Source of the DNA: Liolophura sinensis
Taxonomy: Eukaryota > Mollusca > Polyplacophora > Chitonida > Chitonidae
Direction: 5' to 3'
NCBI RefSeq assembly: GCF_032854445.1
Contig: NC_088305.1
Span: 315,001-379,000 of the forward strand
DNA: 64,000 bases
The position numbers and the translations under genes are program-made. How positions within the stretch are numbered: the first letter of the stretch is position 1; each line of letters begins with the position of its first letter. Below are positions 610-62,720 of the stretch, piece after piece. Below the pieces are notes generated by a model. The model ran no database searches. It was not told the origin of the DNA and saw only the letters and a program-made list of their open reading frames with translations.

Positions 610-2140
610 ATCGACACCTTCAGTTGCCTGCCCTCATGGTTTCCTGTATTTACACTGAATCCACACCTGGTACACCTTCAGTTGCCTGCCCTCATGGCTT
701 CCTGTATTTACACTGAATCCACACCTGGTACACCTTCAGTTGCCTGCCCTCATGGCTTCCTGTATTTACACTGAATCCACACCTGGTGCACCTTCAGTTG
801 CCTGCCCTCATGGCTTCCTGTATTTACACTGAATCCACCTCCGGTACACCTTCAGTTGCCTGCCCTCATGGCTTCCTGTATTTACACTGAATCCACACCT
901 GGTGCACCTTCAGTTGCCTGCCCTCATGGCTTCCTGTATTTACACTGAATCCACCTCCGGTACACCTTCAGTTGCCTGCCCTCATGGCTTCCTGTATTTA
1001 CACTGAATCCACCTTCGGTACACTTTCAGTTGCCTGCTCTGACAGGTTCCTGCATTTACACTGAATCCACACCTGGTACACATTTAGTTGCCTGCGCTCA
1101 TAGCTTCCTGCATTTACACTGAATCCACACCTGGTACACCTTCAGTTGCCTGCCTTCATGGCTTCCTGTATTTACACTGAATCCACACCTGGTACACCTT
1201 CAGTGGCCTGCCCTCATGGCTTCCTGTATTTACACTGAATCCACACCTGGTGCACCTTCAGTTGCCTGCCCTCATGGCTTCCTGTATTTACACTGAATCC
1301 ACACTTGGTACACATTTAGTTGCCTGCCCTCATGGCTTCCTGTATTTACACTGAATCCACACTTGGTACACATTTAGTTGCCTGCCCTCATGGCTTCCTG
1401 TATTTACACTGAATCCACACTTGGTACACATTTAGTTGCCTGCCCTCATGGCTTCCTGTATTTACACTGAATCCACTTCCGGTACATCTTCAGTTGCCTG
1501 CCCTCATGGCTTCCTGTATTTACACTGAATCCACACCTGGTGCACCTTCAGTTGCCTGCCCTTATGGCTTCCTGTATTTACACCGAATCCACCTCCAGTA
1601 CACCTTCAGTTGCCTGCCCTCATGGCTTCCTGCATTTACACTGAATCCACCTCCGGTACACCTTCAGTTGCCTGCGCTCATGGCTTCCTGCATTTACACT
1701 GAATCCACACCTGGTACACCTTCAGTTGCCTGCGCTCATAGCTTCCTGCATTTACACTGAATCCACACCTGGTACACCTTCAGTTGCCTGCCTTCATGGC
1801 TTCCTGTATTTACACTGAATCCACACCTGGTGCACCTTCAGTTGCCTGCCCTCATGGCTTCCTGTATTTACACTGAATCCACCTTCGGTACACTTTCAGT
1901 TGCCTGCTCTGACAGGTTCCTGCATTTACACTGAATCCACACCTGGTACACCTTCAGTTGCCTGCCTTCATGGCTTCCTGTATTTACACTGAATCCACAC
2001 CTGGTACACCTTCAGTTGCCTGCCTTCATAGCTTCTTGTATTTACACTGAATCCACTTCCGGTACATCTTCAGTTGCCTGCCCTAATGGTTTCCTGTATT
2101 TACATTGGATCCACACCCGGTACATCTTTAGTTGCCGCCC
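610..2140. repeat. 58-bp minisatellite (about 26 units) derived from the METTL2 last exon
   Basis: Head-to-tail units of 58 bp. Read on the minus strand, each unit matches the end of METTL2 coding exon 9: the codons for [18 protein letters not shown] correspond to ggcaactgaagatgtaccgg, then gtggattcagtgtaaatac, then aggaagcc. The copy nearest the gene is the coding exon itself. Units differ by a few substitutions. Since 58 is not a multiple of 3, later copies are read in another frame and the second copy supplies the METTL2 stop. I found no AATAAA or ATTAAA on the minus strand between this stop and the window edge. Confidence 0.9.
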
Positions 2141-2220
2141 CCTGTTCACCTGCAGACGTCTGTCAACACTGTTCTGTTCCTCAAGAAGACCAGCTTTTGT
2201 AAACAAACTGCGGAGTTCAT
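2042..2220 (-). CDS. METTL2: METTL2 exon 9 (last coding exon) with array-derived C-terminus
   Basis: Encodes (D)[37 protein letters not shown] and QCKYRKP, then a tail [14 protein letters not shown] and TAA. The conserved protein normally stops a few residues after KYxKP. The tail is a second copy of the 58-bp unit read in the next frame, so the adjoining minisatellite provides the stop. Acceptor aaattttag|AT GAA. Confidence 0.92.
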
Positions 2221-5200: not shown

Positions 5201-8200
5201 CAAAGAGTGACAGGACAAACAAAGAGTGACAGGACATACAAAGAGTGACAGGACATACAAAGAGTGACAGGACAGGCCAAGAGTGACAGGACAAAGAGTG
5301 ACAGGACATACAAAGAGTGACAGGACATACAAAGACTGACAGGACATACAAAGAGTGACAGGACTAGAAAACAAGGGACTGGGTGTACCTCCCATCCATC
5401 ATTTCTTTTCCATATATATAACTATATGTAACCATATATATATAAAACAGAAGTATATGTATATATACAATGGAAATACATCATAAGATATAAGAAAAAA
5501 GTGTAAAATTACACTTACATATATTTATTTCCTTATTTATTTGATTGGTGGTTTACACCACATTCAAAAATATTTCACTTATATGGAGGTAGCCAGCATA
5601 ATGGTGGGAGGAAACTGGGCAACCTGGCAGAGCCAGGGGAAACCCACCACCATCCGCAGGTTGCTGACAGACCTTCCTATGTACATTCATGTACAGAGTA
5701 TATATATATATCATTTGTGTTAAGAAAAAGTTTGGTTAATGTAAAAATGTACTGGACTAGATTATTACACTTGCACAGAAAATAACACTGAAATCGACAG
5801 AAGGATCAATGATAATTTTGTTTCTGGTCAATGGTGACAGCACACCAACTTAGTAAAATAATATGTGCAAGCCAAACTGAGCACACAAAAAGAACCACTA
5901 ACAAGATGCACAGATATCTACTCACATACTTACTTATCTGGGCTAATTGCTGATAAGACAAAGATGAGAGTGATGACATCAAGCGAATTGTGAGGGAATG
6001 GTAGTGGCCAGTCTGACGTGATGTCATAGACGAAGGCATGACACCTGCAGACATCGTAATCAACGTGCTCCTGTAAAACGACACAGAAAGATAATCCACC
6101 ACCTGATTGCTGCTTAATGAAACATGGAATGCCTTCACTGGTTAAATGGGCTAATGCATTAGATTTTTCCAAAGTCAATCAAAATCAACTTCTGACCAAT
6201 GAAGTTGCAGGCTCAAATCAGACTTTAAGACAGGAGACTTACTAGGTAAGTTACCTCGTACAGGTCAAAGGTTAGTGGTTTACTCTTTGCTTCCTTCACT
6301 CATGAACTGAATCACTTTCAGAGAAGTGTTAAATTCCTTAGCATTGAATGTCAATCAAGTAAAGAAATAAGTAAATAAATACGCATGACATGAAAATTTT
6401 AGAAATCTTTGGAACTTTGTTCGCGATTTTAAATCCCAACTTGTGCACGAAAGAGACTGATATTTTCAGGTAATTACTCATGCTCTTCTACATTAATAGG
6501 AAATATTTGATTGGATATGCACTTGTGACAGCCGATTACAGGTTCTCATGTCATAGCACATAGGAAAGTACGGAGAGAAGACACCATAAAGTTTCCTGAG
6601 CGAGTACTGTACCCTGAGAGATACACAATTTCACACACGTGCTCACTCTTGGTCTCCCGCTCTTACTGTTGCAGTTGTCAATACAAGGAAATACGTAGTT
6701 CTGTATTTAATACATGGAACAAGATGGATTAACGTCATCACAGCATTGATCCAGTTTTTCTTTAATACTAAAATGTTTATCATTTATTGGTTTGTGACAA
6801 GGGAGACAACTTACAGGGGCAAGTCTGTATTTATTTATTTTATTTGACTGGTGTTTTATGTTATACTTAAGAATATTTCACTTACACGGTGGCAGCCAGC
6901 ATTATGGTGGGAGGAAACCGGGCAAAGCCTGAGGGAAAACCACAACCATCTGCAGGTTGCTCTAATTCTAACAGAATCTAATTCTGTGTATTTTAGGGTG
7001 TAAAATCTTTTTTTGCTGCCTGCATGCCGTTTTTGGTGTACAGGTGCATGCTTGGTATCAAATTAATGGAAATTGTCTAAGCTTTTGGCAGGTGTGAGTT
7101 TTATTGATGAAAATTTGAAATTCTGGGCGATAGGACAGGTGATGATGAGGCTGCGAGTGACGTCCTCTTGGCGTTGCTAGGCACCTCTCCCAGCTGCCGG
7201 CATAGAAAGGTCCAGATTTTGATGGTCAACCTATGTCAAGGCTTTTGTGATTTCTTTCTCACAGGCTGGGTCAGGTATGCACCAAAGCTTACTGGCCACG
7301 GAATGTTTGGGGCTGAGCTACAGCTCTAAACCTTAACATTGTCACTTATGGAAAATTAATGGGGTCAATATGCAGAGGTAGAACTGTACAACAAAGTGTG
7401 TCATTCTGCCAGTACAATATCACATGTACCAATTCTTACCCTGACTATCTGAATGGCAGTTGATGAGAAATCACAGCAGTACACCATTAGACTGGATCAC
7501 TGAAAAACATGACAATGTGCACAGTCTGAAAAAAGGGGAGCTCTGGGATCATTGAAAAACATGACAATGTTCACAGTCTGATTATAGGTGAGCTCTGGGA
7601 CCACTGAAAAACATGACAATGTTCACAGTCTGATTATAGGTGAGCTCTGGGATCACTGAAAAACATGACAATGTTCAATCTGATTATAGGTGAGCTCTGG
7701 GACCACTGAAAAACATGACAATGTTCAAAGTCTGATTATAGGTGAGCTCTGGGATCACTGAAAAACATGACAATGTTCACAGTCTGATTATAGGTGAGCT
7801 CTGGGACCACTGAAAAACATGACAATGTTCAATCTGATTATAGGTGAACTCTGGGATCACTGAAAAACATGACAGTGTTCACAGTCTGATTATAGGTGAG
7901 CTCTGGGACCACTGAAAAACATGACAACGTTCAGTCTGATCATAGGTGAACTCTGGGATCACTGAAAAACACGACAATGTTCACAGTCTGATCATAGGTG
8001 AACTCTGGGACCACTGAAAAACATGACAATGTTCAATCTGATTATAGGTGAGCTCTGGGACCACTGAAAAACATGACAGTGTTCACAGTCTGATTATAGG
8101 GTGAACTTTGGGATCACTGAAAAACATGACAATGTTCAATCTGATTATAGGTGAGCTCTGGGACCACTGAAAGACATGACAATGTTCAATCTGATCATAG

Positions 8201-11200
8201 GTGAGCTCTGGGATCACTGAAAAACATGACAGTGTTCACAGTCTGATTATAGGTGAGCTCTGGGACCACTGAAAAACATGACAATGTTCAGTCTGATCAT
8301 AGGTGAACTCTGGGATCACTGAAAAACATGACAATGTTCACAGTCTGATTATAGGGTGAACTCTGGGATCACTGAAAAACATGACAATGTTCACAGCCTG
8401 ATTATAAGTGAGCTCTGAGATCACTGAAAAACATGACAATGTTCACAGTCTGATTATAGGTGAGCCTTGGGATCACTGAAAACATGACAATGTTCACAGT
8501 CTGATTATAGGTGAGCTCTGGGACCACTGAAAAACATGACAATGTTCACAGTCTGATTATAGGTGAGCTCTGGGATCACTGAAAAAAATGACAATGTTCA
8601 CAGTCTGATTATAGGTGAGCCCTGGGACCACTGAAAAACATGACAATGTTCACAGTCTGATTATAGGTGAGCTCTGGGATCACTGAAAAACATGACAATG
8701 TTCACAGTCTGATTATAAGAGAGCTCTGGGATCACTGAAAAACATGACAATGTTCACAGTCTGATTATAGGTGAGCTCTGGGACCACTGAAAAACATGAC
8801 AATGTTCACAGTCTGATTATAGGTGAGCTCTGGGACCACTGAAAAACATGACAGTGTTCACAGTTTGACTATAGGTGAGCTCTGGGACCACTGAAAAACA
8901 TGACAATGTTCACAGTCTGATTATAGGTGAGCTCTGGGACCACTGAAAAACATGACAATGTTCACAGTCTGATTATAGGGTGAACTCTAGGATCACTGAA
9001 AACATGACAATGTTCACAGTCTGATTATAGGTGAGCTCTGGGACCACTGAAAAACATGATAATGTTCACAGTCTGATTATAGGTGAGCTCTGGGATCACT
9101 GAAAAACATGACAATGTTCATAGTCTGATTATAGGTGAGCTCTGGGATCACTGAAAAACATGACAATGTTCACAGTCTGATTATAGGTGAGCTCTGGGAT
9201 CACTGAAAAACATGACAATGTTCAATCTGATTATAGGTGAGCTCTGGGATCACTGAAAAACATGACAATGTTCACAGTCTGATTATAGGTCAGCTCTGGG
9301 ACCACTGAAAAACATGACAATGTTCACAGTCTGATCATAGGTGAACTCTGGGATCACTGAAAAACATGACAATGTTCGCAGTCTGATTATAGGTCAGCTC
9401 TGGGACCACTGAAAAACATGACAATGTTCACAGTCTGATTATAGGTGAGCTCTGGGATCACTGAAAAACATGACAATGTTCACAGTCTGATTATAGGGTG
9501 AACTCTGGGACCACTGAAAAACATGACAATGTTCACAGTCTGATTATAGGTGAGCCCTGGGATCACTGAAAAACATGACAATGTTCACAGTCTGATTATA
9601 GGTGAGCTCTGGGACCACTGAAAAACATGACAATGTTCACAGTCTGATTATAGGTGAGCTCTGGGATCACTGAAAAACATGACAATGTTCACAGTCTGAT
9701 TATAGGTGAGCTCTGGGACCACTGAAAAACATGACAATGTTCACAGTCTGATCATAGGTGAACTCTGGGATCACTGAAAAACATGACAATGTTCACAGTC
9801 TGATCATAGGTGAACTCTGGGATCACTGAAAAACATGACAATGTTCACAGTCTGATTATAGGTGAACTCTGAGACCACTGAAAAACATGACAATGTTCAC
9901 AGTCTGATTATAGGTGAGCTCTGAGATCACTGAAAAACATGACAATGTTCACAGTCTGATTATAGGTGAGCTCTGGGATCACTGAAAAACATGACAATGT
10001 TCACAGTCTGATTATAGGTGAGCTCTGGGACCACTGAAAAACATGACAATGTTCACAGTCTGATTATAGGGTGAACTCTGAGGTTACTGAAAGACATGAC
10101 AATGTTCACAGTCTGATTATAGGTGAGCTCTGGGATCACTGAAAAACATGACAATGTTCACAGTCTGATTATAGGTAAGCTCTGGGACCACTGAAAAACA
10201 TGACAATGTTCACAGTCTGATTATAGGGTGAACTCTGAGGTTACTGAAAGACATGACAATGTTCACAGTCTGATTATAGGTGAGCTCTGGGATCACTGAA
10301 AAACATGACAATGTTCACAGTCTGATTATAGGTGAGCTCTGGGACCACTGAAAAACATGACAATGTTCACAGTCTGATCATAGGTGAACTCTGGGATCAC
10401 TGAAAAACATGACAATGTTCACAGTCTGATCATAGGTGAACTCTGGGATCACTGAAAAACATGACAATGTTCACAGTCTGATTATAGGGTGAACTCTGAG
10501 GTTACTGAAAGACATGACAATGTTCACAGTCTGATTATAGGTGAGCTCTAGGACCACTGAAAAACATGACAATGTTCACAGTCTGATTATAGGTGAGCTC
10601 TGGCATAACTGAAAACATGACATGTTCACAGTCTGATTATAGGTGAGCTCTGACATAACTGAAAACATGACATGTTCACAGTCTGATTATAGGTGAACTC
10701 TGGACCACTGAAAAACATGACAATGTTCACAGTCTGATCATAGGTGAACTCTGGCATAACTGAAAAACATGACAATGTTCACAGTCTGATTATAGGTGAG
10801 CTCTGGGACCACTGAAAAACATGACAATGTTCACAGTCTGATTATAGGGTGAACTCTGATGTCACTGAAAAACATGACAATGTTCACAGTCTGATTATAG
10901 GTGAGCTCTGAGACCACTGAAAAACATGACAATGTTCACAGTCTGGTTATAGGTGAGCTCTGGGATCACTGAAAAACATGACAATGTTCACAGTCTGATT
11001 ATAGGGTGAACTCTGAGGTCACTGAAAAACATTACAATGTTCACAGTCTGATTATAGGTGAGCTCTGGGATCACTGAAAAACATGACAATGTTCACAGTC
11101 TGATTATAGGTGAGCTCTGGGACCACTGAAAATCACGACATGCTTCATCTACAGAGAAATCTTAGAGCCAATGATCTTCCACTTACTTTAAAGAGAAATC

Positions 11201-14029
11201 TTATGGCAAAACATCTTCCACTTCATTTACAGAGAAATTTTAGAGCCAATCACCTTCCATTTCATCTACAGAGAAATCTTATGGCCAATGATCTTCCAGT
11301 TCATTTACAGAGAAATCTTATGGCAAAATATCTTCCACTTCATTTACAGAGAAATTTTAGAGCCAATCACCTTCCACTTCCTTTATAGAGAAATCTTTTG
11401 GCAAAACATCTTCCACTTCATTTACAGAGAAATCTTATGGCCAATGATCTTCCAGTTCATTTACAGAGAAATCTTATGGCAAAATAGCTTCCACTTCATT
11501 TACAGAGAACTCTCATGGCCAATTATCTTCCATTTCTTCTACAGACAAATCTTTACAGAGCTAATCATCTTCTATTTCATTTATAGAGAAATGTTTGAGC
11601 CAGTCATCTCTCCAATATACTTAAGAGAAACCTTAAGCAAATAACTGTTCAATTCATTCTATACAGAGGACAATATCAAGATCTTGATCTTCCCATTTCA
11701 TTAATGCAAAAAGCCAGATTTCTTTTTTCCAGTTCATTTGGAAACAAGAAGCAGAAAAAAAGAACACAAAAACACATTTCATAAATGTTTATGTTGTAAA
11801 TATTTTGACTTGAGATTTCACATTATGTCTACGGATGCTAAATCAAATGAGTATATTTACTTACTTGTTTGTTTGTAGCACTGGGAAAACTGTGTTGCCA
11901 ACACCACAACCAACCTTAAATATACAAACAAAACCTGTGATGTAATATGATTCAGGTAGAAATTAGAAATCCATTTATTCATCTATTTGTTCGGTGTTTT
12001 ACACCAGACTCAAGAATATTTCACTCATGTCAAGATGGCCAGCTTTATGGTGAAAGAAAACCATGCAGAATCCAGGTGAATGTCCAGTCACAGGCTGCAG
12101 GCACACCATCCCACATACGGAGAGGAAGTCAGCATGCGCTGGACAATTATATCTGAACAAATCACAAATCAACAATTACATTTTGCAATATCCCATACAT
12201 CACAAACAACAACAACGACACTCTACATGTACACGGAGTAACACACAACCTTGCATACACATGTTCCATACACAACGACGAACATTTTGTTATTACAAAC
12301 ACTGAATAAATTATAAAAAGAACAGGAAAAGTCTTCCTCAGTCAACAAAAATGACCTTTTTGTCGTGATGACATGAATGGGTTTCAAACTGAAAGTTTTG
12401 ATAAAAGATAAACAATGAAATCAAGTTTGATTTGAATATCCTCAGCCCAAATTACCACTTACTTCAAGAATTCGAAATTTTGCATTTTCCCCAGGATATG
12501 ATTCACTTGTACTCAATTCATTTTCACTTATGTCAACTTTAGCTTCTTCCATTTGATTACTGGAATCTGTAGAGTTATCTTTCTTGTTTCCATGACAATT
12601 TGCAGTAGCTAACTCTGGAAATTCTGTAAAGAGCCAATGTCTGTCTTTGAAAAATCTATTTTGATGTTGTCCATAAAAACTGTTCCAGTACTCTCCTGCT
12701 TCCGTTTCATATTTTTCTGAAAAAGAAAAAAACTCAGTATATGACATCAATTAAACTAAAAGAATGTCAGCCAAAAGAAATGACCAACTGATTTCCATGT
12801 ATTTCTCATATTAACAAGCCAAAACACATAATAGCTGCATCTAGGATTTCACATCAGCACTCAGGCAAAATTTTACAAGAAAATGAGTTTTTTTAAAAAC
12901 AGCGTGGCTAAACTAGACGATGGTCAGAGTAGGTACCTTTTGTGTTTGCATCCAATCGGTGTTTAATTTGCTCCTCTGTCACCTGCCTGGCCTCTGTTTC
13001 TTGATCCTCACCCCACACGACATCATCCCTAGGGATGTAAACATAAACAACATTATCCCTGGTGAGGTAAACACACACAGCATTATCCCTGATAAGGTTA
13101 ACACACACAGCACTATCCCTTGGGAATATAAACACACACGGCATTACCCCTTGGGAATGTAAACGCAAACAGCATTATCCCTGGGGGATAAACACACACA
13201 TCATAATCCCTGATGAGGTAAATACACATCGACATGCCTCAGTGATTTGGGAGATACAATGATAATCCAAATATGAATCGTGACTAAAGAATGTAATGCA
13301 GTGATTAGCAAGGCCATCATTAAAAACATATTCACTGGGGTAACCTGATCAACTTTCCAAAAAAAGGGCCCCTACTGTAAAACTTATTTTGGGCTTTGAC
13401 CACCTTTCTCAAACTAAAATGTGCGCGTGTGCGTGTGTGTGTTAAACTTTACTATATCCCTTGAAGAGAAAGGGATTACTGATGAACTTAAAGCTTTGCA
13501 CTTTATCAAACCACCCAGGCATAAATGTGCTGCTTACCAGTTATTAAAGCTAAACACATCATTTGGATCTGTCAATTGTCGAGACCCACCCTGTGGCCGC
13601 TTTCTGTGTCGAGTATGCTCATGGCAGAGTCGTCTTGCATCATGGGTCAAAATGGGCCGAAACTTGGTCAAAAACCCTAAAAGGCTATGTGTTAGCTTTA
13701 TTCCAGTCATCTGCCAATATAGATTAAAGAAGGCAGTCATTTTTGATTCAGAAAACAGATTTGTTCATATACCGATATGGATAAAGACTTTTGCATATCG
13801 TCACGAAAAACAGAGTATCTGCAATTCCAAAGAGGGGCTAGTTTTCGACACGCAATATAGACCATTGTCTTGTTATTAATCGAGTTAAATAGCTGTTAAC
13901 CCTTTACCATGCGTTGTGTTCGAAGACATTTTGTGGATTGGTCAGAAATCTGTTTCCAAATTGTGGGCGTTTGTCGTCAGAATTGGTCGATTTAACGGAA
14001 CACGTGTTTTTCTCTTCTGAGCTGGCCAT
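2042..14029 (-). CDS. METTL2: tRNA N3-methylcytidine (m3C32) methyltransferase, METTL2/METTL8 family, 9 exons
   Basis: SAM-dependent methyltransferase that makes 3-methylcytidine at position 32 of the anticodon loop (in animals, METTL2 acts on cytosolic tRNA-Thr and tRNA-Arg; METTL8 on mitochondrial tRNAs). Exons on the minus strand: 14029-13908, 13028-12937, 12716-12463, 11914-11865, 7499-7440, 6070-5934, 4302-4196, 3052-2987, 2220-2042. All junctions are GT-AG and in phase. The product is about 355 residues (human METTL2A about 378). Diagnostic blocks are [40 protein letters not shown] motif [70 protein letters not shown] and [10 protein letters not shown]. Exon 5 lacks one base. A homologous alternative first exon lies at 13740-13538. 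Tandem arrays formed from exons 2, 5 and 9 flank those exons. The start at 14029 was chosen over 14107 because it gives the usual short N-terminus. Family identity is very secure. Confidence 0.95.
2462..2640 (-). repeat. SINE-like fragment, related second family
   Basis: Resembles the body gccagatatatggtggaggaaacc followed by gggataaaccacccacc. It has the same architecture as the common SINE of this window but a distinct sequence; other copies are at 35640-35790, 36465-36680 and, as a short fragment, near 58600-58640. It lies in METTL2 intron 8. Confidence 0.6.
2987..3052 (-). CDS. METTL2: METTL2 exon 8
   Basis: A 66-nt exon encoding (G)[19 protein letters not shown] plus TQ, the conserved [14 protein letters not shown] block. 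Acceptor acctgtag|GTAGATG, donor CGCAAG|GTAAGG. Confidence 0.93.
3132..3157. repeat. Interstitial telomeric repeat with head-to-head junction
   Basis: Three GGGTTA units running directly into CCCTAAC, that is TTAGGG-type repeats meeting their inverse, within METTL2 intron 8. TTAGGG is the usual animal telomere repeat. Only 26 bases long, so it is a repair scar or chance rather than a telomere. Confidence 0.7.
3250..3466. repeat. 29-bp minisatellite, about 8 units
   Basis: Tandem units of the form gtcagggagcactaatctgc + ttcatccat in METTL2 intron 8. No match to a neighbouring exon was found. It ends where a low-complexity AT-rich stretch begins. Confidence 0.85.
4196..4302 (-). CDS. METTL2: METTL2 exon 7
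   Basis: Encodes [20 protein letters not shown], then [15 protein letters not shown], the most conserved block of the family. Acceptor cacccag|G ATG, donor AAAAAAG|GTACGA, 107 nt, in phase with its neighbours. Confidence 0.95.
4395..4560 (-). repeat. SINE fragment (common family)
   Basis: Diverged body: gatcagtgttttgtgccg, gccagcattatggttggagg, then gcaggctgc and cttcccac. Reverse orientation, no tRNA-like head left. METTL2 intron 6. Confidence 0.7.
4605..5362. repeat. 19-bp minisatellite, about 40 units
   Basis: Tandem gtgacaggacaaacaaaga-type units with 11-bp short variants (gtgacaggaca aag). Located in METTL2 intron 6. Long open frames on the minus strand (repeating [10 protein letters not shown]) are an effect of the repeat and are not genes. 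The unit is polypyrimidine-rich in the gene's sense. Confidence 0.9.
5519..5692 (-). repeat. SINE fragment (common family)
   Basis: Reads gattggtggtttacacc, cacttatatggaggtagcc, agcataatggtgggaggaaa, ccatccgcaggttgctgaca, preceded by tttatttattt (the SINE 3' tail on this strand). The tRNA-like head is missing. METTL2 intron 6, close to exon 6. Confidence 0.85.
5934..6070 (-). CDS. METTL2: METTL2 exon 6
   Basis: Encodes [20 protein letters not shown] through [17 protein letters not shown], the methyltransferase core after motif II. Acceptor gttttacag|GAGCAC, donor GATAA|GTAAGT, 137 nt, phase 2. Confidence 0.93.
6825..6965 (-). repeat. SINE fragment (common family)
   Basis: Tail and body of the same family: tttatttgactggtgttt, ggcagccagcattatggtgg, catctgcaggttgc. 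Truncated before the head. METTL2 intron 5. Confidence 0.85.
7440..7499 (-). CDS. METTL2: METTL2 exon 5, one base short
   Basis: Encodes [21 protein letters not shown] (motif II, acidic residue of YCCDFS) when read as conserved protein. The exon is 60 nt where 61 are needed. It reads GATCCAGTC, while the repeat units copied from it read GATCCCAG, so one C has been lost (7494-7495 on the plus strand). Uncorrected, a TAA follows two codons later. Acceptor tttttcag|TGATCC, donor CAGG|GTAAGA. Confidence 0.85.
7490..11135. repeat. 52-bp minisatellite (about 70 units) spanning the METTL2 exon 5 splice acceptor
   Basis: About 3.6 kb of head-to-tail 50-53 bp units (plus strand: gggatcactgaaaaacatga, caatgttcacagtctgatta, taggtgagctct). 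On the minus strand each unit reads gtcatgtttttcag|TGATCCCAG, which is the polypyrimidine tract, AG and first exon bases of METTL2 exon 5. The genuine exon (7499-7440) continues from the last unit at the downstream end. Units alternate between GGATC and GGACC variants, suggesting higher-order amplification. Sits wholly in METTL2 intron 4. Confidence 0.92.
11140..11640. repeat. 39-bp minisatellite, about 13 units
   Basis: Units such as ttccacttcatttacagaga + aatcttatggccaatgatc. A 39-bp period is 13 codons, so frames stay open ([13 protein letters not shown] and similar); this is a repeat effect. It abuts the 52-bp array in METTL2 intron 4 and does not resemble exon 4. Confidence 0.88.
11865..11914 (-). 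CDS. METTL2: METTL2 exon 4 (SAM motif I)
   Basis: A 50-nt exon encoding [16 protein letters not shown], the glycine-rich SAM-binding loop. Acceptor tttaag|GTTGG, donor AACAA|GTAAGT, phase 2. Too short for ordinary ORF detection; found by looking for the missing motif between exons 3 and 5. Confidence 0.92.
11965..12140 (-). repeat. SINE fragment (common family)
   Basis: Reads tcggtgttttacaccagact, caagaatatttcactcat, gccagctttatggtgaaa, then cacaggctgcaggcaca and cggagaggaagtcagcatgc, so it retains part of the region next to the head. METTL2 intron 3. Confidence 0.75.
12463..12716 (-). CDS. METTL2: METTL2 exon 3
   Basis: Encodes [19 protein letters not shown], then the hallmark [17 protein letters not shown], a low-complexity acidic Ser/Asn linker, and KFRILE just before SAM motif I. 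Acceptor after a long T-rich tract, donor GAA|GTAAGT. Length 254 nt, 85 codons including the split first Glu. Confidence 0.93.
12937..13028 (-). CDS. METTL2: METTL2 exon 2
   Basis: Encodes (W)[20 protein letters not shown] and so on to ANTK, matching the WDNVEWSEEQ region of METTL2. Acceptor ccctag|GGATGATG, donor AAAG|GTACCT. Length 92 nt. The acceptor and the first exon bases are the seed of the 30-bp array immediately upstream (13029-13230). Confidence 0.9.
13021..13230. repeat. 30-bp minisatellite (about 7 units) spanning the METTL2 exon 2 splice acceptor
   Basis: Units of 29-31 bp, plus strand cattatccctggtgaggtaa + acacacacag. On the minus strand each keeps (C/A)AG|GGATnATG, the acceptor and first bases of METTL2 exon 2, preceded by a T- and GT-rich stretch. 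The exon boundary at 13028/13029 lies inside the first unit and the exon continues from there. Every unit I inspected retains AG before GG. Confidence 0.82.
13538..13740 (-). CDS. METTL2: METTL2 alternative first exon 1b, candidate mitochondrial isoform
   Basis: Minus-strand open frame of 67 codons plus 2 nt, ending in ...NN and TG before a perfect GTAAGC donor, so it joins exon 2 (TG|G GAT) in exactly the same phase as exon 1a. Its last 22 residues, from [13 protein letters not shown] on, match exon 1a at 13 of 22 positions, and GSRxLTDPxxVFxxNxW is closer to METTL8 than to METTL2 as I remember them. The leader ([20 protein letters not shown]..., then [20 protein letters not shown]) is rich in Arg, Lys and hydrophobic residues with no Glu or Asp before the Asp in THDARR, as in a mitochondrial presequence. 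A second ATG is at 13710. Transcription from it is not demonstrated. Confidence 0.65.
13908..14029 (-). CDS. METTL2: METTL2 exon 1a (cytosolic-type first exon)
   Basis: Encodes the start [12 protein letters not shown] and the family block [17 protein letters not shown], ending in TG of the split Trp codon before GTAAAG. Length 122 nt, phase 2. An upstream in-frame ATG at 14107 would add 26 residues; I prefer 14029 because human METTL2 has a similarly short leader. Confidence 0.88.
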
Positions 14030-20109: not shown

Positions 20110-21180
20110 TTTACCTGACGGGTATCCTATCAGCAGTGCTGGGTTTCTTTTCAAATACCGGTGGAGTCGTCACATTATCCGATGAGTATCTTCTCAGGAG
20201 AGCTGGTTTTCCTGTCTCTAATACCGGGTCCACACATTAGCTGATGTATAATTTCTCAGGAGAGCTGGTTTTCCTGTCTCTGTAGTACCGGGTCCACACA
20301 TTAGCTGATGTATAACTTCTCAGGAGAGCTGGTTTTCCTGTCTCTGTAGTACCGGGTCCACACATTAGCTGATGTATAATTTCTCAGGAGAGCTGGTTTT
20401 CCTGTCTCTGTAGTACCGGGTCCACACATTAGCTGATGTATAATTTCTCAGGAGAGATGGTTTTCCTCTCTCTGTAGTACCGGGTCCACACATTAGCTGA
20501 TGTATAACTTCTCAGGAGAGATGGTTTTCCTGTCTCTGTAATACCGGGTCCACACATTAGCTGATGTATAATTTCTCAGGAGAGATGGTTTTCCTCTCTC
20601 TGTAGTACCGGGTCCACACATTAGCTGATGTATAACTTCTCAGGAGAGCTGGTTTTCCTGTCTCTGTAGTACCGGGTCCACACATTAGCTGATGTATAAC
20701 TTCTCAGGAGGGCTGGTTTTCCTGTCTCTGTAATGCCGGGTCCACACATTAGCTGATGTATAATTTCTCAGGAGAGATGGTTTTCCTCTCTCTGTAGTAC
20801 CGGGTCCACACATTAGCTGATGTATAACTTCTCAGGAGAGCTGGTTTTCCTGTCTCTGTAGTACCGGGTCCACACATTAGCTGATGTATAACTTCTCAGG
20901 AGGGCTGGTTTCCCTGTCTCTGTAATACCGGGTCCACACTTTACCTGATGTATAACTTCTCAGGAGGGCTGGTTCCCCTCTCTCTCTAATACCGGGTCCA
21001 CACATTACCTGATGTATAATTTCTCAGGAGAGATGGTTTTCCTCTCTCTAATGCCGGGTTCACACATCACCTGATGTATAACTTCTCAGGAGGGCTGGTT
21101 TCCCTCTCTCTCTAATACCGGGACCACACTTTACCTGATGTCTAACTTCTTAGTCGAGCTGGTTTTCCTCTCTTTCTAGA
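20110..21180. repeat. 64-bp minisatellite, about 17 units
   Basis: Units such as ccgggtccacacattagctg, atgtataacttctcaggaga, gctggttttcctgtctctgt, agta, with shorter and diverged units at both ends. On the plus strand each unit contains tttcctgtctctgtag, which has the form of a polypyrimidine tract plus AG. No exon continuing from the last unit was recognised, so an exon origin is not shown. Confidence 0.9.
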
Positions 21181-35300: not shown

Positions 35301-38300
35301 AGACAGCTGCGTGATGAACTGGACGGGCCTTCGCTCGGGTCATTCTGGTTACTCTGTTTCCTCCTCGGTTAACCGCCGTCGAGACAAAAAAAGCTTGAAT
35401 GAATGGTAAAGCCACTAGACCACTAGTTCCGTAGCTCGAATTTGAGTAACATTTCCACCGACCTGCAGACGGCCCTAGATATTTAGGGTAAAGGCAGATA
35501 GTTTCAGGGGTGTTTATTGTTGTTTGGTTGGAAAAGGACGCTCTTTGGTTTTGAAAAAGACAAACCAATTGTTTGGAATATTTTCGGTGGCTGAGAACAG
35601 AGGTGAGTACATATTTAGTTATCTATTTGTATAATTAAAAAGCACCTGCATCAACCCTCAAATCTTGACGTACGCTGTTAATGGTAGAGGAAACCCGGAG
35701 TGCCCAGGAAAAACCATCGACCGTTGTCAAATTCCTGACACGTTCCCACTGGTCTCGTGCAGATATGCACGCCCAAGTCGTGGAAAATTAGTGGTGAGCA
35801 GAAGCCGCATTTAAAAGTGGACGTCGTGTTTCAGTGTAGTGAAAGGCCCAAGCTGGAGAGTAGACAGTTTTAATCTAATATAACCGAGGGCCTTGACGTA
35901 AATGTATAGGGCCTACCCTCCCTATATGGGCATGGCCTGAAAAATGGCCTGCATGAAATCACCTGCGTGCATTACCCGATGTCATATGTTTTGTTACATG
36001 TAGCTGCTTGTATGTATCTGATTTTTCACACAGATGACTTTTAACACTTTTCGCGTTCTTTAGACTTCTTTGTGTAATTTACTAATTTTTCTCGTTCACA
36101 GCAAAGTAACTGGCCCAGGGGTAAAGTGCTAGGAGGTACAAGCTGTCTGAATCACATGCAGTATGTAAGAGGAAGTCGTCATGACTACGACTTGTGGGCG
36201 GAGCTAGGTTGTCAGGGGTGGAGCTATAGAGAGGTGTTGCCATACTTCATCAAATCGGAAAATAACACGAATAAAGAATACGTTGAATCAGGTCAGTCTA
36301 TCATTTGAACATCCCAAAAGAAAATGTACAGAATGACTAACAAAAAAAGACGCCGAGATATTCAGTAAAGATATTTTCATTTTCATTGACCCACTCAACA
36401 CCTGCAATCCTACACGAAATGTTCCTGCATGTTATTTTGGCCGGCTGTTTCCATTTAATTTATTTATTTCAGTACTTCTGGCCGCCATACTCCAGAATTT
36501 ACACGATGACGGTCGTTTATATGGGTGGTAAATACCGGAGTGTCTGAGGTAAACCCCCGATTTTTGGAAAATTACTCAAGAACTTTTCCAGGTGTAACAT
36601 ACAGATAGGCACAACATACTGGTGGAGGGCAAGTGGTCTTCACCTGCGGTTGGAATCTACTGACGTCATATGACAGCCGTCGACCGCTTTATTGTAACAA
36701 ACTAATAGAAAATCAGGGAGGAAAATGACCTTGCAATTTAAATAGTTGATAATTATATTATGGGATTAAGTTGACCGTGAAACCACATAGAAACTTTAAA
36801 TTGTATGTATATTTCAAGACCGTCTATATTTTTCTACAGTATTTCTATTCATAGAATCACTTATTGGGTTGTTTCATATTCATGAAAAGCCCTGTTCTCT
36901 GGTTATTAGCCAGTTGACTTCCCCCGGTTTCTAAGTCAGTTGAATTCCTCCAGGCTTATATATACAGTGCATCAGTTGACTTTTCCCAGACTTGGGTGTG
37001 CACATCAATTGACTTCCCTCAGGCATGTATGTGTACCTTAGTTGATTTGCCGCAGGCTATCACGGCAGCCCTGGCCTTATGGTTATATACCATGTCTTTC
37101 CGCAGGCTATCACGGCAGTACTGGCCCTATGATTACATCTCATGTCTTTCCGCTGGCTTTCACGGCAGCACTTTCCCTATGGTTACATCTCATGTCTCCG
37201 CAGGCTATCACGGGAGTACTAGCCCTATGGTTACATCTCATGTCTTTCCGCAGTCTATCACGACAATACTTGCCCTATGGTTACATCTCATGACTTTCCG
37301 CAGGCTATCACGGCAGTACTGGCCCTATGGTTACATTCCATGTCTTTCCACAGGCTATCACGGCAGTACTGGCCCTATGGTTACATCTCATGTCTTTCCG
37401 CAGGCTATCACGGCAGTACTTGCCCTATGGTTACATCCCATGTCTTCCCGCAGGCTATCACGGCAGTACTGGCCCTATGGTTACATCTCATGTCTTCCCG
37501 CAGGCTATCACGGCAGCACTAATCTTTTGGTTACATCTCATGTCTTTCCGCAGCCTATCACGGCAGTACTGGCCCTATGGTTACATCTTATGTCTTTCCA
37601 CAGGCTATCACGGCAGTACTAGCCCTATTGTTACATCTCATGTCTTTCCGCTGGCTATCACGACAGCCCTGGCCCTATGGTTACATCCCATGTCTTTCCA
37701 CGGGCTATCACGACAGTACTAGTCCTATGGTTATCACGACAGCCCTGGCCCTATGGTTATGTCTCATGTCTTTCCGCAGGCTATCACGGAAGTACTGGCC
37801 CTATACTTATATCTCATGTCTTTCCGCAGGCTATCGCGGCAGCACTTGCCCTATGGTTACATCTCATGTCTTTCCACAGGCTATCACGGCAGTACTGGCC
37901 CTATGATTACATCTCATGTCTTTCCGCAGGCTTTCACGGCAGCATTTTCTCTATGGTTACATCTCATGTCTCCGCAGGCTATCACGGGAGTACTAGCCCT
38001 ATGGTTACATCTCATGTCTTTCCGCTCGCTATCACGACAATACTTGCCCTATGGTTACATCTCATGACTTTCCGCAGGCTATCACGGCAGTACTGGCCCT
38101 ATGATTACATCTCCTGTCTTTCCGCTGGCTTTCACGGCAGCACTTTCCCTATGGTTACATCTCATGTCTCCGCAGGCTATCACGGCAGCACTTGCCCTAT
38201 GGTTACATCTCATGTCTTTCCGCAGGCTATCACGAAAATACTTGCCCTATGGTTACATCTCATGACTTTCCGCAGGCTATCACGGCAGTACTGGCCCTGT

Positions 38301-41300
38301 GGTTACATCTCATGTCTTTCCGCAGGCTATCGCGGCAGTACTAGCCCTATGGTTACATCTCATGTCTTTCCGCTCGCTATCACGACAATACTTGCCCTAT
38401 GGTTACATCTCATGACTTTCCGCAGGCTATCACGGCAGTACTGGCCCTATGGTTACATCTCATGTCTTTCCGCAGGCTATCGCCGCAGCGCTAGCCCTAT
38501 GGTTACATCTCATGTCTTTCCGCAGGCTATCGCGGCAGTACTAGCCCTATGATTATGTCTCATGTCTTTCCACAGGCTATCACGGCAGTACTGGCCCTAT
38601 GATTACATCTCCTGTCTTTCCGCTGGCTTTCACGGCAGCACTTTCCCTATGGTTACATCTCATGTCTCCGCGGGCTATCACGGCAGCACTTGCCCTATGG
38701 TTACATCTCATGTCTTTCCGCAGGCTATCACGACAATACTTGCCCTATGGTTACATCTCATGACTTTCCGCAGGCTATCACGGCAGTACTGGCCCTGTGG
38801 TTACATCTCATGTCTTTCCGCAGACTATCGCCGCAGTACTAGCCCTATGGTTACATCTCATGACTTTCCGCAGGCTATCACGGCAGTACTGGCCCTATGA
38901 TTACATCTCATGTCTCCGCAGGCTATCACGGCAGTACTAGCCCTATGGTTACATCTGATGTCTTCCCGCAGGCTATTAAGGCAGTACTAGCCGTATGGTT
39001 ATATCCCATGTATTTCCGCAGGCTATCACGGCAGTACTGGCCCTATACTTATATCTCATGTCTTTCCGCAGGTTATCACGGCAGTACTTGCCCTATGGTT
39101 TTATCTCATGTCTTTCCGCAGGCAATCACGGCAGTACTAGACCTATGGTTATATCTGATGTCTTTCCGCAGGCTATCACGGCAGCACTGGCCCTATGGTT
39201 ATATCTGATGTAGGCATCACACCGCTGTGTAGGACGTTTGTCCGTGCCGGCCAGGAGCTGGGGTACCAGGCGAGAGACTGCAATGGCCAGGAGCAAATAG
39301 GCAAGAGAGAATTATATCGGAACACAACCCTTGCTGTTAATATAAGCTGGTTGCTAGCTTATATTCATAACTCAAAATAGGAAATGGTTTTCTTGCAGGC
39401 TCGCATTAAATTAGAAAGCTTGCATTAAGTTAGAAAGCTTGCACTAAATTAGAAAGCTTGCATTAAGTCAGAAAGCTTGCAATAAGCTAGAAACCTTGCA
39501 TTAAGTTAGAAAGCTTGCATTAAGTTAGAAAGCTTGCATTAATTTAGAAAGTTTGCATTAAGTTAGAAACCTTGCATTAAGAATGTCTTGAAATTTTGAG
39601 TCTGATATCAGTCATAACAGAAAGGCCAAGATTTGGACATGAAGGGGTTTTGTGCAGTGTCAGCTTGAGGAATCTTATTACATTTAGGCACTAGATCTTT
39701 CTCCATTTTCCTTTCGTATTATGAGATAGTCTTTATTACCATACAGTGATATTTTAATTAAATATACATGTATATGCATTAAAATTCTTCCATCCAGGAC
39801 CTGAAAATAACACGCTCCTCACAACCCCAAAATCGGGCTATAGAACGGACGGTTGACGCAGTAATATATAACCATTTATCCTCATGAGTTGAAAGATTTG
39901 TCAAAAGTTTTTGTGAATAACAAACTTTGTTATGTGTATGTGTTATCAGGCTTTATGGTTTCGCAATGCAATGTCGGAGACGGGAAACGTACGAGCACAT
40001 CTGCGGCATTTCTGAAACCTGCAATGGCTCGCAAAAATCTACATGTGGTTACGCATGCGCATGCGGTGAAGGTACGCATCCTTTTTTCCCCTTGTTCCTA
40101 AACTTAACATTGAACATCGTTGTTAAATGATTAGGTCAGACTCGTGAACGATTGTAACTTTAATAGTTACGTATATGTATGTAAATTCAATACAAAACAG
40201 CGTCCGAAAGCTACAGTCTAAAAATTAATCTTTTACTTTTAAGACAAAGTCTGTTGCGTGAGTGATGCTAGAATGTATTCTGTTATTTTAACGCAATGTT
40301 CTGTCATATTCAACATAATATTCTGTTATAGTCCAATAGAACTAATATGATATGTGTGTTTTATGTCACAGAATAATCTGCTGCAATATATAGCAGAATA
40401 CATTCTAGATTCACCCGGATTATCTCTTAAACTTGACAGATTAATGTTTTGGGTGTATAGGAGAATAGAGAATGAGTGAATGACAGAATGAATGGTTATG
40501 TCCTAACGCCATTGCCGGCAATATTGCAGCAGTGTCGTGGCGAGAGAGTAGAGGAAGAAAGAGAACAGTGAATTTCTATCTACACATAACTTACCTTATA
40601 AAGATATAACTCATCTTCACAATGCACTCTTTTTTCAGATTGTTTTTGAGAAGGATACGGCTAATGGTATTGTGTTCAGACGAAATGGGAAACTCCAAAC
40701 GGTGCAGGCTAGGCGGGAAATTGTCCTCTGCCAAGGAGCTATCGGCACCCCACAGATCCTAATGCTCTCAGGAGTTGGGCCTCGTGATCATCTACAAAGT
40801 TTACAGGTAATCGTACTGTGATATGTTCACAATGACGTCAGTAAGGTAAGCTGAAAGTCACATGAGGTCCCGTTTTCAGTGCATGGCTCCTTCCACAGAA
40901 CAAGCCTAAAGCAGAAATTTTCCCGTATGATCATGCCCAGTTCCCATTGGTGACAATAACCGGTCGACATCGATTGTACAGAAAGTTTGAGAACAGAAAG
41001 TTTGATAGAGATCACATATTCCTTCCACCAAAGGATAGCAAAACATAAAAATGATCCCAAAAGCAGATGAAAGAGCTTCAGAACTTAATTGCAAACATGG
41101 TCTTTAATATTTCTTTGGATTTCCTTTTTCAGGAGAAAAGGGTACTTGAAAATATTTTCGTCTGATGGGTATTTGGAATTACCTTTTTGCTATTTATTAT
41201 TTGCATAATAATGTTCTAAATAAGGATGTGATTCATGTCAAAGAAATTTAATTTCATGTAAATTTGTTCTTTGGATCCAAACATAAGCATATAATTTGAA

Positions 41301-53752: not shown

Positions 53753-53785
53753 TGACGTCACGTGACCAGGTTAACAATATGGCGG
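53753..53785 (+). promoter_or_regulatory. CRE/CLEAR palindrome next to a YY1-like initiator
   Basis: TGACGTCA (53753-53760) overlaps the 10-bp palindrome GTCACGTGAC (53757-53766), which equals the CLEAR/E-box consensus for TFEB/MITF-type factors as I know it. Fifteen bases on, the start codon lies in caatATGGCGG, a YY1-type element common at short 5' leaders. A compact promoter is inferred. Confidence 0.5.
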
Positions 53786-53887
53786 TTCTCAGAATGCTAT
53801 ACCGCAGGCGGCGTGTATTGCTCATGTTGGTCTTCATGAGTTTGTTTTGGGTTGTGTTTTTATACCTGTCCATGCCGGCATCGTCAG
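53779..53887 (+). CDS. DUF4773-like gene exon 1 (signal anchor)
   Basis: 36 codons plus one base, MAVLRMLYRRRRVLLMLVF to MPASS, ending TCAG|GTCAGT. Joined to exon 2 it gives SSGYEKKKG. The ORF continues into the intron, so the boundary rests on the donor and phase. Confidence 0.8.
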
Positions 53888-59800: not shown

Positions 59801-62720
59801 CAAAAACTGTCTGATTTGGGACTTATCGCCAAACCTAAGCCAGTCATAAAACAAATCGGCAAAACCTCGATATTAAATATAACAATGTCCAAGGAGGAGA
59901 TCATGTTCGTCATAAAGACTCTGATCATGGAAGCGGAGAAGAAATCCTCGGACAAAATAACGCACGCCAAAGTCTCCCCAGGGGGACACAACCACACAAA
60001 CTCTTCTGCTGGAGCGTCCGGGAACCTCTGTCATTGCATGAATGCTGACTGCACGTGCTGTGCTCAGCTACAGTTTATCAAGCTTCATGTTGTCAGGAAG
60101 GCCTGCGCTAATTTTAGCTTTATGCCAAAATCTCAGGTAAGGCCAGATAGCAAATGTTTCAGTGATTTCTAGTCTGTACATAGCTTTTGTCATACTTCGA
60201 GACCAAAGCCTGCGTTGAACAACATGGAAAACATTGCTAAGGTATATGTTGACGGTGGTGTCTCAAAATGTTCTGCATGCATTGAGCTCAGGTTTTGAAC
60301 ACAAGTAGAACACAATATCACTAGGGGTATATTCCATTGTTAATTTGGTGCATGCGTTTTAATTACCGGAAATTACAAAATTCACAACTTGATGTATTGT
60401 GTATACTTTCTTGACAACAATTTGAAAATTATCTGGGTCAAACTACAAGTATGTTTTGTTGTGTAGAAATACAGTATATGTGTTAAAGAAAACGTGGAGA
60501 TGTATATGTAAGTATTTTGTTTGTAGTGGGTATAAGTACATCCAATTACAAATGTAAAGCCAAAAATTGTTCATTCACCACAATGTTGGTGTGTGTGGGT
60601 AGTGTGGGGGAAGGGGGGAGAAAGAAACCAAATCATATACTCAGACAAAATTCTCCAAAATAAATTCTCCAGCATTCATCTAAAACTGGTTGTATCTTCT
60701 TTGTTTTTAGACTTTTTTGCCTTGATAAACTGCAGTTAAATGTTTCAATTCTATGTGGAAAATTCAAGCAAGTTTTAGTGGTTACAAAGTCAAACATGAG
60801 AATAGATGAAATTATTTTTATGAAGTGTTTAGTGGTTAATTTGAGGTTGAAAATGTATCATTTGGTATTGCTTATTCCACAGCCATTATCCTTGACACAC
60901 ATAATAATTTTCAAACTTACATGTACTTATTTATTGAATATTATATTAAAATATTAAGTGGCCCCTGTGGCCCTGAGGGTTAGCACGCCAGCATGGCGCA
61001 ATGATCCAGGACCCTACCACCAGTTCGGTCATTGTGAGTTTAAGTCCATCTCATGCTGGTTTCCTCTCCAGCCATACATGAAAACGTCCTCAGCAACTTG
61101 TGGATGGTCGTGAGTTGCCCAGTTTCCTTCCTCAGTAATGTTGGCTATCTTTAAAGTGAAATATTCTTAAGTATGGTGTAAAACACCAATCAAATAAATA
61201 AATTAATATTAAATATATTCCAAGAATTAAGGCATCCAACTTAAGGACCTGTTCATCGTTGTGTCACTCTCAATTTGATAGGAGATGTCATTTATGTTCC
61301 TGCTGGATGGGAAGACTCAGTTTACAGAGGTCATATCAGGTAAGTAACTGTATCTCCTGGATTGGAAGACTCAGTTTACAGAGGTCAAATCAGGTAAGTA
61401 ACTGTATCTCCTGGATTGGAAGACTCAGTTTACAGAGGTCATGTCATTCACAGACTATTGTTCTATCACTATATACTCAACAGTGATTGGCTGGCCTCAT
61501 CACCCACAGAGTATACACTCAGCAGTGATTGGCTGGTGAGATCATCCATAGACTATTGTCCTAACACCATATACTCAACAGTGATTGGCTGGTCAGATCA
61601 TCCATAGACTACTGTGCTAACACCATATACTCAACAGTGATTGGCTGGCCAGATCATCCACAGACTATTTTGCTCACACCATATAATCAACAGTGATTGG
61701 CTGGCCAGATCATCCACAGGCTGTTGTGCTCACACCATTTACTCAACAGTGATTGGCTGGTCAGATCATCCACAGAGTATAGTACAACATACACTCAACA
61801 GTGATTGGCTGGTCAGATCATCCGCAGACTATTGTACTAACACCATATGCTCAACAGTGATTGGCTGGTCAGATCATCCACAAACTATTGTGCTAACACC
61901 GTATACACAACAGATAAAAGAGAATGGAAGGGCCACTCATTTGCATATCTGCATTAAGCAACTTGCAAATATATAAAGCCAACGAATCCTTCTCAATGAT
62001 TTAGTGGTCGAGTGGTTAAAACACTGTCCTTCTAAGCGTGAGAACAAGATTCAGTCTTCTGTCTGGTCAAGCATGTGCATGCTGCGCTGACAAGACGACA
62101 AATTGACATCCTTTGCTCATCCTCTTCTGGCGCTCCACAGGACGGGTTAACTCCTCTGCCCGGTGTCTCTATACTGTGAATGGTGTTTCATGCAGAGCTT
62201 GCCAGTGATGCAGCACTGTAAATGTGACGACATTGGGACTTGCTGTCTACAATAAAACACTGTTGAAAGTCACTGTATACCCTAATCAAGCAAATATGAA
62301 TAATCCTAATGGTATTGTTTCATTTATTAATCACTTAAGTGATACAGTTTTGTTAGTATTACCTCCAGAGGTTTAGCGAGTAGGTGTCGCGTTCATTAGC
62401 GATCACTTCATCATTAATACCTTGATTAATGTATGTTATAAGCTATTATGTCACTTGTTTTTTTAGCTGAACACCCTCCAAAAATCTGCCTGGGCTCAAT
62501 GTCAAAAGACGTGGAGATATGTGTGGACTTCTTCAATATGGCTTTCACTGTTAATATGCACGAGGAACACAAAACACAGTTGAGTGGCTGTCTTGACTTT
62601 TGCTTCAATATCTACAACAGAACAATCAGTACTTTTCCACTGGGCTGTTTCCAGATCCCCAGTGATTCACACAAGGAAGACCATCCACAGATACCGTTAC
62701 TAGGCAACTGGGTTCCTTGA
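53779..62720 (+). CDS. Type II membrane protein with C-terminal DUF4773-like Cys-rich domain, 4 exons
   Basis: Exons 53779-53887, 59427-60136, 61282-61339, 62467-62720; all GT-AG and in phase; 376 residues. The N-terminus is a short basic stretch (MLYRRRR) followed by one hydrophobic segment (VLLMLVFMSLFWVVFLYLSM): an uncleaved signal anchor, so the rest should be lumenal or extracellular. Residues about 40-230 are polar and Asn/Lys/His/Ser-rich with a repeated FGAQIKNKTF/VGAQVKNKTL motif and several N-glycosylation sequons. The C-terminal 130 or so residues hold CHCMNADCTCC, KACANFSFMPKSQ, PPKICLG, VEICVDFFNMAF, SGCLDFCFNIYN and FPLGCFQIP, a spacing of Cys and hydrophobics that I associate with DUF4773 in insects and molluscs, whose function is unknown. 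Intron 1 (5.5 kb) holds two minisatellites. The domain call is from memory. Confidence 0.85.
54067..56490 (+). other. DUF4773-like gene intron 1, first part
   Basis: Intronic sequence. A small tandem of aaccaacagtggggttt-type units (about 4) lies at 54408-54475. Otherwise no array, SINE or second gene recognised. Confidence 0.5.
56495..56720 (+). repeat. SINE body fragment, second tRNA-headed type
   Basis: gactggctggcccagtgtca, gtataatgttactgggt, gtgtcatgtctggtgtcttc, ggccctgccacaaggagaca, taatgactcctcatcgtcat. Homologous to the reverse complement of about 14640-14810. DUF4773-like gene intron 1. Confidence 0.8.
57011..57836. repeat. 38/48-bp minisatellite rich in GTAAGTGTG, about 19 units
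   Basis: Units: gataagccagcagactgaag, ctgcatatgtaagtgtg, with an optional extra taagtgtgt, so short and long forms alternate. On the gene strand every unit contains one or two GTAAGT motifs, the ideal 5' splice-site hexamer. Open minus-strand frames (THLHMQLQSAGLSHTY) are repeat effects. Confidence 0.92.
58389..58475 (+). repeat. tRNA-like sequence, probable SINE head
   Basis: A box A-like gtttaaggcgcttgtc and a near-perfect box B GGTTCAGTCCC about 40 bases apart. Flanking arms do not close as a functional tRNA acceptor stem that I can see, so a SINE head is more likely than a gene. Confidence 0.5.
58860..59272. repeat. 104-bp tandem repeat, 4 units
   Basis: Each unit: accattgtaatatacatata, catgtgattttgttttcaga, tttctggtttagttcttttt, ccatgttacaatcacc, then an A run and gtcatcattggaaagttt. 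On the gene strand every unit contains gattttgttttcag, an acceptor-like tract. It ends about 155 bases before exon 2. Confidence 0.93.
59427..60136 (+). CDS. DUF4773-like gene exon 2
   Basis: 236 codons after the split Gly: polar linker, then CHCMNADCTCC and the start of the Cys-rich domain up to FSFMPKSQ. Acceptor ggtgtgttgcag|GTTATG, donor CTCAG|GTAAGG. Phase 0 out. Confidence 0.88.
60137..60958 (+). other. DUF4773-like gene intron 2, first part
   Basis: AT-rich intron sequence with no array or second gene recognised. Confidence 0.5.
60959..61204 (+). repeat. Full-length tRNA-headed SINE (common family)
   Basis: Head: tggcccctgtggccctgagg, gttagcacgccagcatggc (box A region) and tcattgtgagtttaagtcc (box B region). 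Body: cttgtggatggtcgtgagtt, ccttcctcagtaatgttggc, then gtgaaatattcttaagtatg and ggtgtaaaacaccaatcaa, and a (aaat)n tail. This copy shows the element's orientation and both ends. It sits in intron 2, 78 bases before exon 3. Confidence 0.9.
61282..61339 (+). CDS. DUF4773-like gene exon 3 (58 nt)
   Basis: Encodes EMSFMFLLDGKTQFTEVIS, a beta-hairpin-like piece of the domain. Acceptor caatttgatag|GAGATG, donor TCAG|GTAAGT. The exon end and donor are duplicated downstream, at 61356-61444. Confidence 0.87.
61310..61444 (+). repeat. 54-bp tandem duplication of the DUF4773-like exon 3 end and its donor
   Basis: Copy 1 is the exon end and the start of the intron (...gaagactcagtttacagagg, tcatatcag|gtaagtaactg). 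Copy 2 repeats it with an intact donor at 61394. Copy 3 is cut after gaggtcatgtc, without a donor. The period is 54 bp, so use of the second donor would add exactly 18 codons, in frame. Confidence 0.9.
61445..61915. repeat. 55-60-bp minisatellite, about 8 units
   Basis: Units: actcaacagtgattggctgg, tcagatcatccacagactat, tgtgctaacaccatat. It follows directly on the donor duplication, within intron 3 of the DUF4773-like gene. Confidence 0.9.
62001..62275 (+). repeat. SINE with tRNA-Ser/Leu-like head
   Basis: tttagtggtcgagtggttaa (box A) and gagaacaagattcagtcttc (degenerate box B), followed by an unrelated body and ending in ctacaataaaacactgttga. Intron 3 of the DUF4773-like gene. Confidence 0.6.
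62467..62720 (+). CDS. DUF4773-like gene exon 4 (C-terminus)
   Basis: Encodes (A)EHPPKICLGSMSKDVEICVD, FFNMAFTVNMHEEHKTQLSG, CLDFCFNIYNRTISTFPLGC and a short tail ending GNWVP, TGA. Acceptor tgtttttttag|CTGAAC, in phase with exon 3. Confidence 0.9.

Follow-up and report, generated by a model that had tools for sequence, protein, structure and literature searches.

Genes and tandem arrays of the window

The window, by which we mean the whole 64-kb stretch of Liolophura sinensis DNA that was analysed, contains three genes that could be rebuilt from the sequence. A METTL2/6-like gene lies on the minus strand, with nine mapped exons and an open frame of 352 codons (352 aa), and residues 148-339 of its predicted product match METTL6 structures (E 1e-56). 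A GMC oxidoreductase gene lies on the plus strand (PF05199 match; PF00732 matches were also found inside the window), with ten mapped exons, of which the later ones were joined without a frame-perfect fit. The third gene, also on the plus strand, carries DUF4773 (PF15998, E 5.9e-16). An open frame is obtained for METTL2 if one acceptor is shifted, for the DUF4773 gene, and for the stretch of GMC exons that flanks its array.

Tandem Repeats Finder (TRF) returned 53 rows for the window, which represent 33 separate arrays with a period of at least 10 and make up 23% of its bases; five of the 33 lie at gene edges. An earlier note on this DNA had claimed that five arrays are each built from an exon edge of their own gene. 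TRF finds all five, and comparison with the rebuilt genes confirmed that each consists of its own gene's edge, but only four of them span splice junctions, the array of the METTL2 last exon lying across the end of the coding region. Three of the four junctions are acceptors, belonging to METTL2 exons 2 and 5 and to the GMC exon, and the fourth is the donor of DUF4773 exon 3; all four are among 40 that were mapped in the three rebuilt genes. Under a null in which each array starts from one seed unit, 0.69 junctions would be expected inside arrays (P 0.006), a figure that is biased by the choice of a window picked for having such arrays. By base count, 4 of 40 junctions is not high, because arrays occupy 23% of the window bases.

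In the METTL2-like gene, a 30-bp array (13014..13228, minus strand; 7.1 copies by TRF) lies at the acceptor of exon 2 (12937..13028; CCCTAG|GGATGATG). Its unit consists of approximately 15 nt of intron end and the first 15 nt of the exon, and AG is kept in 6/6 surplus units. At the acceptor of exon 5 (7440..7499, minus strand), a 52-bp array of 70.4 copies (TRF) extends over 7494..11140, and its unit includes just ~6 nt of the exon. Use of the acceptor that this array suggests (TTTTTCAG|TGATCC) would lead to an immediate in-frame stop; to read all 352 codons, splicing must instead use the following AG, with an acceptor at 7491/7492 (GATCCAG|TCTAATG) that lies 8 nt downstream of the array-like CAG. 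The motif CCCAG is present in 51 of 63 anchored copies of this array (the exon copy itself and an odd partial one being counted in), as compared with CCAG in the exon copy itself, and with CCC the exon would give the in-frame peptide NDPSLMVYCC. Because of this difference between the copies and the exon, it is the exon copy that appears to be altered, or the assembly to be in error. We infer that the array may preserve the older edge of exon 5, with a base then lost from the exon copy and its acceptor moved, if the assembly is correct at this point.

A 58-bp array (614..2140, minus strand; 26.3 copies by TRF) repeats the end of the METTL2-like coding sequence rather than a splice edge, and the TAA that closes the coding part of the last exon (2042..2220, minus strand) is in the second unit of the array. 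This second unit (2042-2099) encodes the C-terminal residues VPEVDSV, and array sequence has thus become coding. Beyond the main array, TRF reported a second block of 2.7 units at 36-193. Approximately 420 nt part this block from the main array, and they hold a plus-strand open frame (433-612, MAGPTKESMKREFEKVIPYAKV...) for which no Pfam match was found.

In the GMC gene, a 50-bp array (37050..39211, plus strand), which TRF splits into rows of 13.7 and 29.8 copies (~43 units), lies at the acceptor (CCGCAG|GC) of the exon that encodes GYHGSTGPM...EQIG (39172..39300, plus strand). This exon, called exon 4 in the earlier note, is the third of the ten that were mapped, and the frame is open through it on both sides (e.g. 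EQIG|FMVSQ). A genome search with the exon gave 16 matches including the window's own, the weakest with an E of 0.33. The five paralogs examined all have the acceptor at the identical place with no array lying across it, although three of the five loci contain arrays elsewhere. Because the junction is array-free in these five paralogs, we regard the array as the younger of the two and as derived from the exon; the GMC intron probably predates the array. The donor of this exon (39299-39302) is GC (ATAG|GCAAGA), whereas GT is found there in all five paralogs, in three of them as ATAG|GT. Upstream of the first mapped GMC exon, a 40-bp array (33547-33740) has a donor-like unit, AATCCAG|GTGAGG.

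In the DUF4773 gene, a 54-bp array (61303..61446, plus strand; 2.7 copies by TRF) lies at the donor (ATCAG|GTAAGT) of exon 3 (EMSFMFLLDGKTQFTEVIS, 61282..61339, plus strand), and its unit consists of 37 nt of exon and 17 nt of intron. The protein ends encoded within the units (GYHGSTGP, TEVIS of DUF4773 and the METTL2 end) are conserved. Acceptor arrays lie upstream of their exon and the donor array downstream, as had been claimed, but every duplication across a junction must have this orientation: only the last or the first copy, respectively, runs on into the rest of the exon, and the side taken by the array is therefore forced by geometry.

The window also contains a 64-bp array (20171-21173) with an acceptor-like unit, CTGTCTCTGTAG|TACCGG, after which no exon was seen by eye; this array is possibly left from a lost or unrecognised exon, of the type called a mirage in amphioxus (see below). 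Several short interspersed elements with tails like AAAACACCAATCAAATAAATAA are present in introns of the window (e.g. 43080-43140 and 11970-12060), a kind of element known from molluscs.

Genome-wide search with array units

The genome (609,464,459 bases in 632 contigs) was searched, with a DNA search that skips very common words, for four of the five unit types of the window, those of 52, 50, 58 and 54 bp. These four gave 73 matches, all within the window. With pieces of ten further arrays, the search gave 10 first-look candidates and 173 matches, and among the matches listed, every one was at its own source locus. As the genome-wide matches of the four searched unit types were only in the window, these units arose in place.

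Junction arrays in a sample of unselected genes

The earlier note had proposed that the arrays reflect a recurring mechanism and had asked for their overlap with splice junctions to be compared with a null. We made this comparison on loci picked by profile search, blind to arrays, with the myosin head (PF00063), kinesin (PF00225) and GMC profiles. The sample comprised 126 distinct exons from 58 gene clusters, spread over 12 contigs and totalling 234,727 bases, and contained 77 TRF arrays with a period of at least 10, covering 13.5% of locus bases, with overlapping stretches of loci counted twice in the base and array totals. A simple splice-site score, applied close to each profile match, served to call junctions; it placed 176 of the 252 exon edges and left the rest unscored. 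A junction was considered to be inside an array if at least 4 bp of array lay on either side of it.

Ten of the 176 called junctions, in 9 genes on 7 contigs, were inside arrays. These were 6 donors and 4 acceptors, and 0/7 of the GMC junctions of the sample were among them. When read by eye, the units repeat the splice site together with the exon edge, as in a kinesin gene (TTGTACAG|GAAGCCATGTCCATCAACAAGTC) and in another kinesin gene (TTTGGACAGAG|GTAAGA). Junction arrays recur across the genome, and junctions are not spared by them. The acceptor at locus L060 was retained among the ten and is less certain. The donor at L099, where the HMM match extends past the exon into intron sequence, was re-placed by hand, and its unit includes only 6 nt of exon. 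The period at L022 was taken as 267 (TRF) in the test for excess and as 140 in the reading by eye. Candidates at L018, L032 (two), L060 (a donor), L088 and L108 were dropped after inspection by eye, as the array adjoined the junction but did not extend across it, or as there was no junction to be seen. The 71-bp array at the L099 kinesin donor extends for ~3.3 kb (C9:757059-760324), past the piece examined.

The ten junctions compare with an expectation of 5.03 (P 0.033; locus-bootstrap ratio 1.06-3.4) under a null in which each array begins as one unit placed randomly in the array-collapsed non-coding part of its locus; locus L007 is inside the window, and without it the expectation is 4.99. 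Over twelve settings, P for the excess was 0.003-0.055, uncorrected for the choice of settings. Arrays were found at 5.7% of junctions versus 1.8% of control points placed further inside the collapsed introns (51/2803, autocorrelated). Counted by bases, junctions were instead under-covered (8 seen versus ~20 expected, for 147 junctions of the first 68 loci), which is to be expected if arrays cannot swallow exons. Arrays lie in slightly GC-richer sequence than their own introns (+2 points, P 0.008) and the 40-bp stretches at junctions are 4.5 GC points above introns, so that base composition could account for part of the excess. Junctions are perhaps favoured two- to threefold as array sites. 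The proposal of a recurring mechanism thus holds in that junction arrays recur outside the window, but the case for a mechanism directed at junctions is weak, with an excess of approximately twofold and 67 of the 77 arrays away from any called junction.

Splice dinucleotides in surplus units

In 14 arrays (four from the window and ten from the sample), AG or GT was kept in 240 of 273 surplus units. Retention was near-complete in several arrays (68/69 in the 52-bp METTL2 exon 5 array, and 17/17, 23/24 and 19/20) and lower in others (34/42 in the 50-bp GMC array, and 29/43, 8/11 and 5/7), with 29/43 the worst among the larger arrays. Among the 11 arrays of five or more units, the intactness of the splice dinucleotides did not differ significantly from that of other dinucleotides of the same units (0.88 versus 0.83, P 0.21). 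Selection against decoys was rejected as an explanation, as splice dinucleotides were no less intact than others. An apparent extra conservation of the splice dinucleotides relative to the exon copy (P 0.035) was gone when they were measured against the unit consensus and same-type dinucleotides.

The exon and intron parts of the units were equally divergent (P 0.58, with the GMC junction set 3 nt off in this comparison), and identity to the exon copy dropped weakly with distance from it, with a negative rank correlation in 9 of 11 arrays, three of them below -0.4. These observations are compatible with arrays whose units turn over neutrally and in which selection acts only on the copy that is used. 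As judged from the units, intact decoys are apparently tolerated, being neither purged nor demonstrably preserved. The claim that selection keeps one functional copy is consistent with this pattern, but the surplus splice signals show no sign of removal.

Comparison with known systems

The first mirage was reportedly described in Adh3 in 2002, and a paper is said to treat human introns derived from tandem arrays. Among the papers listed by our literature searches, none reported mirage-type arrays from a mollusc. The statement in the earlier note that no process of this kind has been described does not stand, as PMC3087553 and PMC3902484 describe amphioxus mirages in Adh3, the globins BflGb6 and BflGb9, troponin C and PGBD5; the last two are added by PMC3902484, which states that mirages leave splicing undisturbed. 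Like the chiton arrays, mirages are minisatellite-like tandem duplications of an intron/exon boundary (PMC3087553, PMC3902484), they affect both 5' and 3' boundaries, many of their units keep AG or GT, and their units, of 10 to about 160 bp, are a further likeness. Concerted evolution within the array, with diverging boundary copies, is given there as another trait of mirages. The four junction arrays of the window and the ten of the sample have a boundary-spanning unit, occur at both boundary types and mostly keep the surplus AG or GT, and by these traits they are mirages.

The chiton differs from amphioxus in being of another phylum, in having one array of ~3.3 kb, in that prevalence was estimated in unselected genes, and in copy number, which reaches ~70 (52-bp unit) as compared with 3 and 6 in two BflGb6 haplotypes (PMC3087553). 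Splicing of the mRNA and length polymorphism are reported for amphioxus mirages, whereas the chiton arrays are known here from one haploid assembly. In PMC2812944, variable internal tandem repeats in human genes likewise overlap exon-intron boundaries and alter gene structure, but these are in recently duplicated genes and are tied to novel introns, whereas the chiton GMC junction predates its array. The potato RdRp gene (PMC4974935) resembles the chiton case in a tandem duplication that carries splice signals, but there a new intron results.

Discussion

We consider it probable that these are mirage-type minisatellites, which arose through ordinary local tandem duplications that straddled junctions and in which selection keeps one working copy. 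A segment of 27-140 bp across an existing splice junction (in one case, across the end of the coding region) would have been duplicated in tandem, in place, and the array would then have expanded, presumably via slippage or unequal exchange. The surplus copies would have been taken into the adjoining intron or 3' flank, while the copy joined to the rest of the exon would remain the working one, as selection on the protein demands. Surplus splice signals would be tolerated, and we infer that splicing passes over them. Such an origin requires no junction-specific machinery, though a modest junction excess may accompany it; given the excess of approximately twofold, plain random seeding may be incomplete as an account.

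A preference of this kind would be explained if transcription, R-loops or splicing-linked breaks favoured duplication at exon edges, and the two- to threefold excess of arrays over both the seed-anywhere and the offset controls agrees with such targeting, as does the biased window figure. However, the numbers are small, the uncorrected P reaches 0.055 at some settings, most arrays lie elsewhere, GC could explain part of the excess, and acceptors and donors are both affected, so that we regard targeting as possible but rather unlikely. That the arrays instead created the introns, by intron gain through tandem duplication (the Rogers model), seems very unlikely to us, even though AG and GT within the repeated units offer the same raw material, amphioxus globins have been suggested to gain introns in this way (PMC3087553) and a case has been described in a potato gene (PMC4974935). 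For GMC this origin is contradicted by the five paralogs whose junction has no array across it, and the METTL2 and DUF4773 arrays lie on one side of a junction that has an ordinary, distant partner site. If the arrays were functional splicing elements under selection, either banks of alternative sites or enhancers, the high retention of AG and GT in surplus units would be expected, but other arrays keep fewer, intactness is not significantly above that of other dinucleotides, the five GMC paralogs examined have no such array, and a unit of 50, 52 or 58 bp would throw the reading frame out; such a function is very improbable.

In molluscs, tandem repeats can be spread by transposons, and the earlier note had named a match of exon to array through an unrelated transposon as an observation that would overturn its reading. 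We dropped a transposon or dispersed-repeat origin of the units, as none of the matches listed in the 609-Mb genome for the 52-, 50-, 58- and 54-bp units and the pieces of ten further arrays lay at an unrelated place, away from its source locus, and the exon portion of the unit codes for conserved protein sequence; the chance that an unrelated transposon or dispersed satellite links exons and arrays is close to negligible. An assembly artefact that inflated short repeats would account for the odd one-base difference in METTL2 exon 5, and repeats are hard to assemble, with a HiFi coverage of 14x here (PMC11068029). We nevertheless find an artefact extremely unlikely, since the units of the five window arrays differ mutually (77-95% matches by TRF) and since the HiFi reads, which average 8,347 bp (PMC11068029), can span the longest array (3.6 kb).

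The chiton arrays extend mirages to a distant phylum and to larger copy numbers, and this work adds an estimate of their prevalence in unselected genes, a first test of junction preference, and the finding that most decoy sites stay intact. Their presence at 10/176 junctions in a chiton makes mirages a broader feature of some animal genomes, beyond a few lancelet genes. The published repeat table for this genome (PMC11068029) gives simple repeats, microsatellites and RNA together as 0.08% of the genome, as compared with the 13.5% of TRF arrays (period at least 10) in our sampled loci. Junction arrays would confuse gene prediction, and they may preserve older exon edges, as for METTL2 exon 5, and could act as a local fossil record.

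The arrays also provide a natural test of splice-site choice, with one real site beside up to ~70 near-identical decoys. We can tentatively envisage, although we doubt it, that chiton splice junctions are preferred birthplaces of minisatellites through a genome-wide duplication process linked to transcription or splicing, with approximately one in twenty junctions carrying mostly intact decoys and with a robust choice of the exon-proximal site. If this were true, splicing in chitons must have a robust way of choosing the exon-proximal site.
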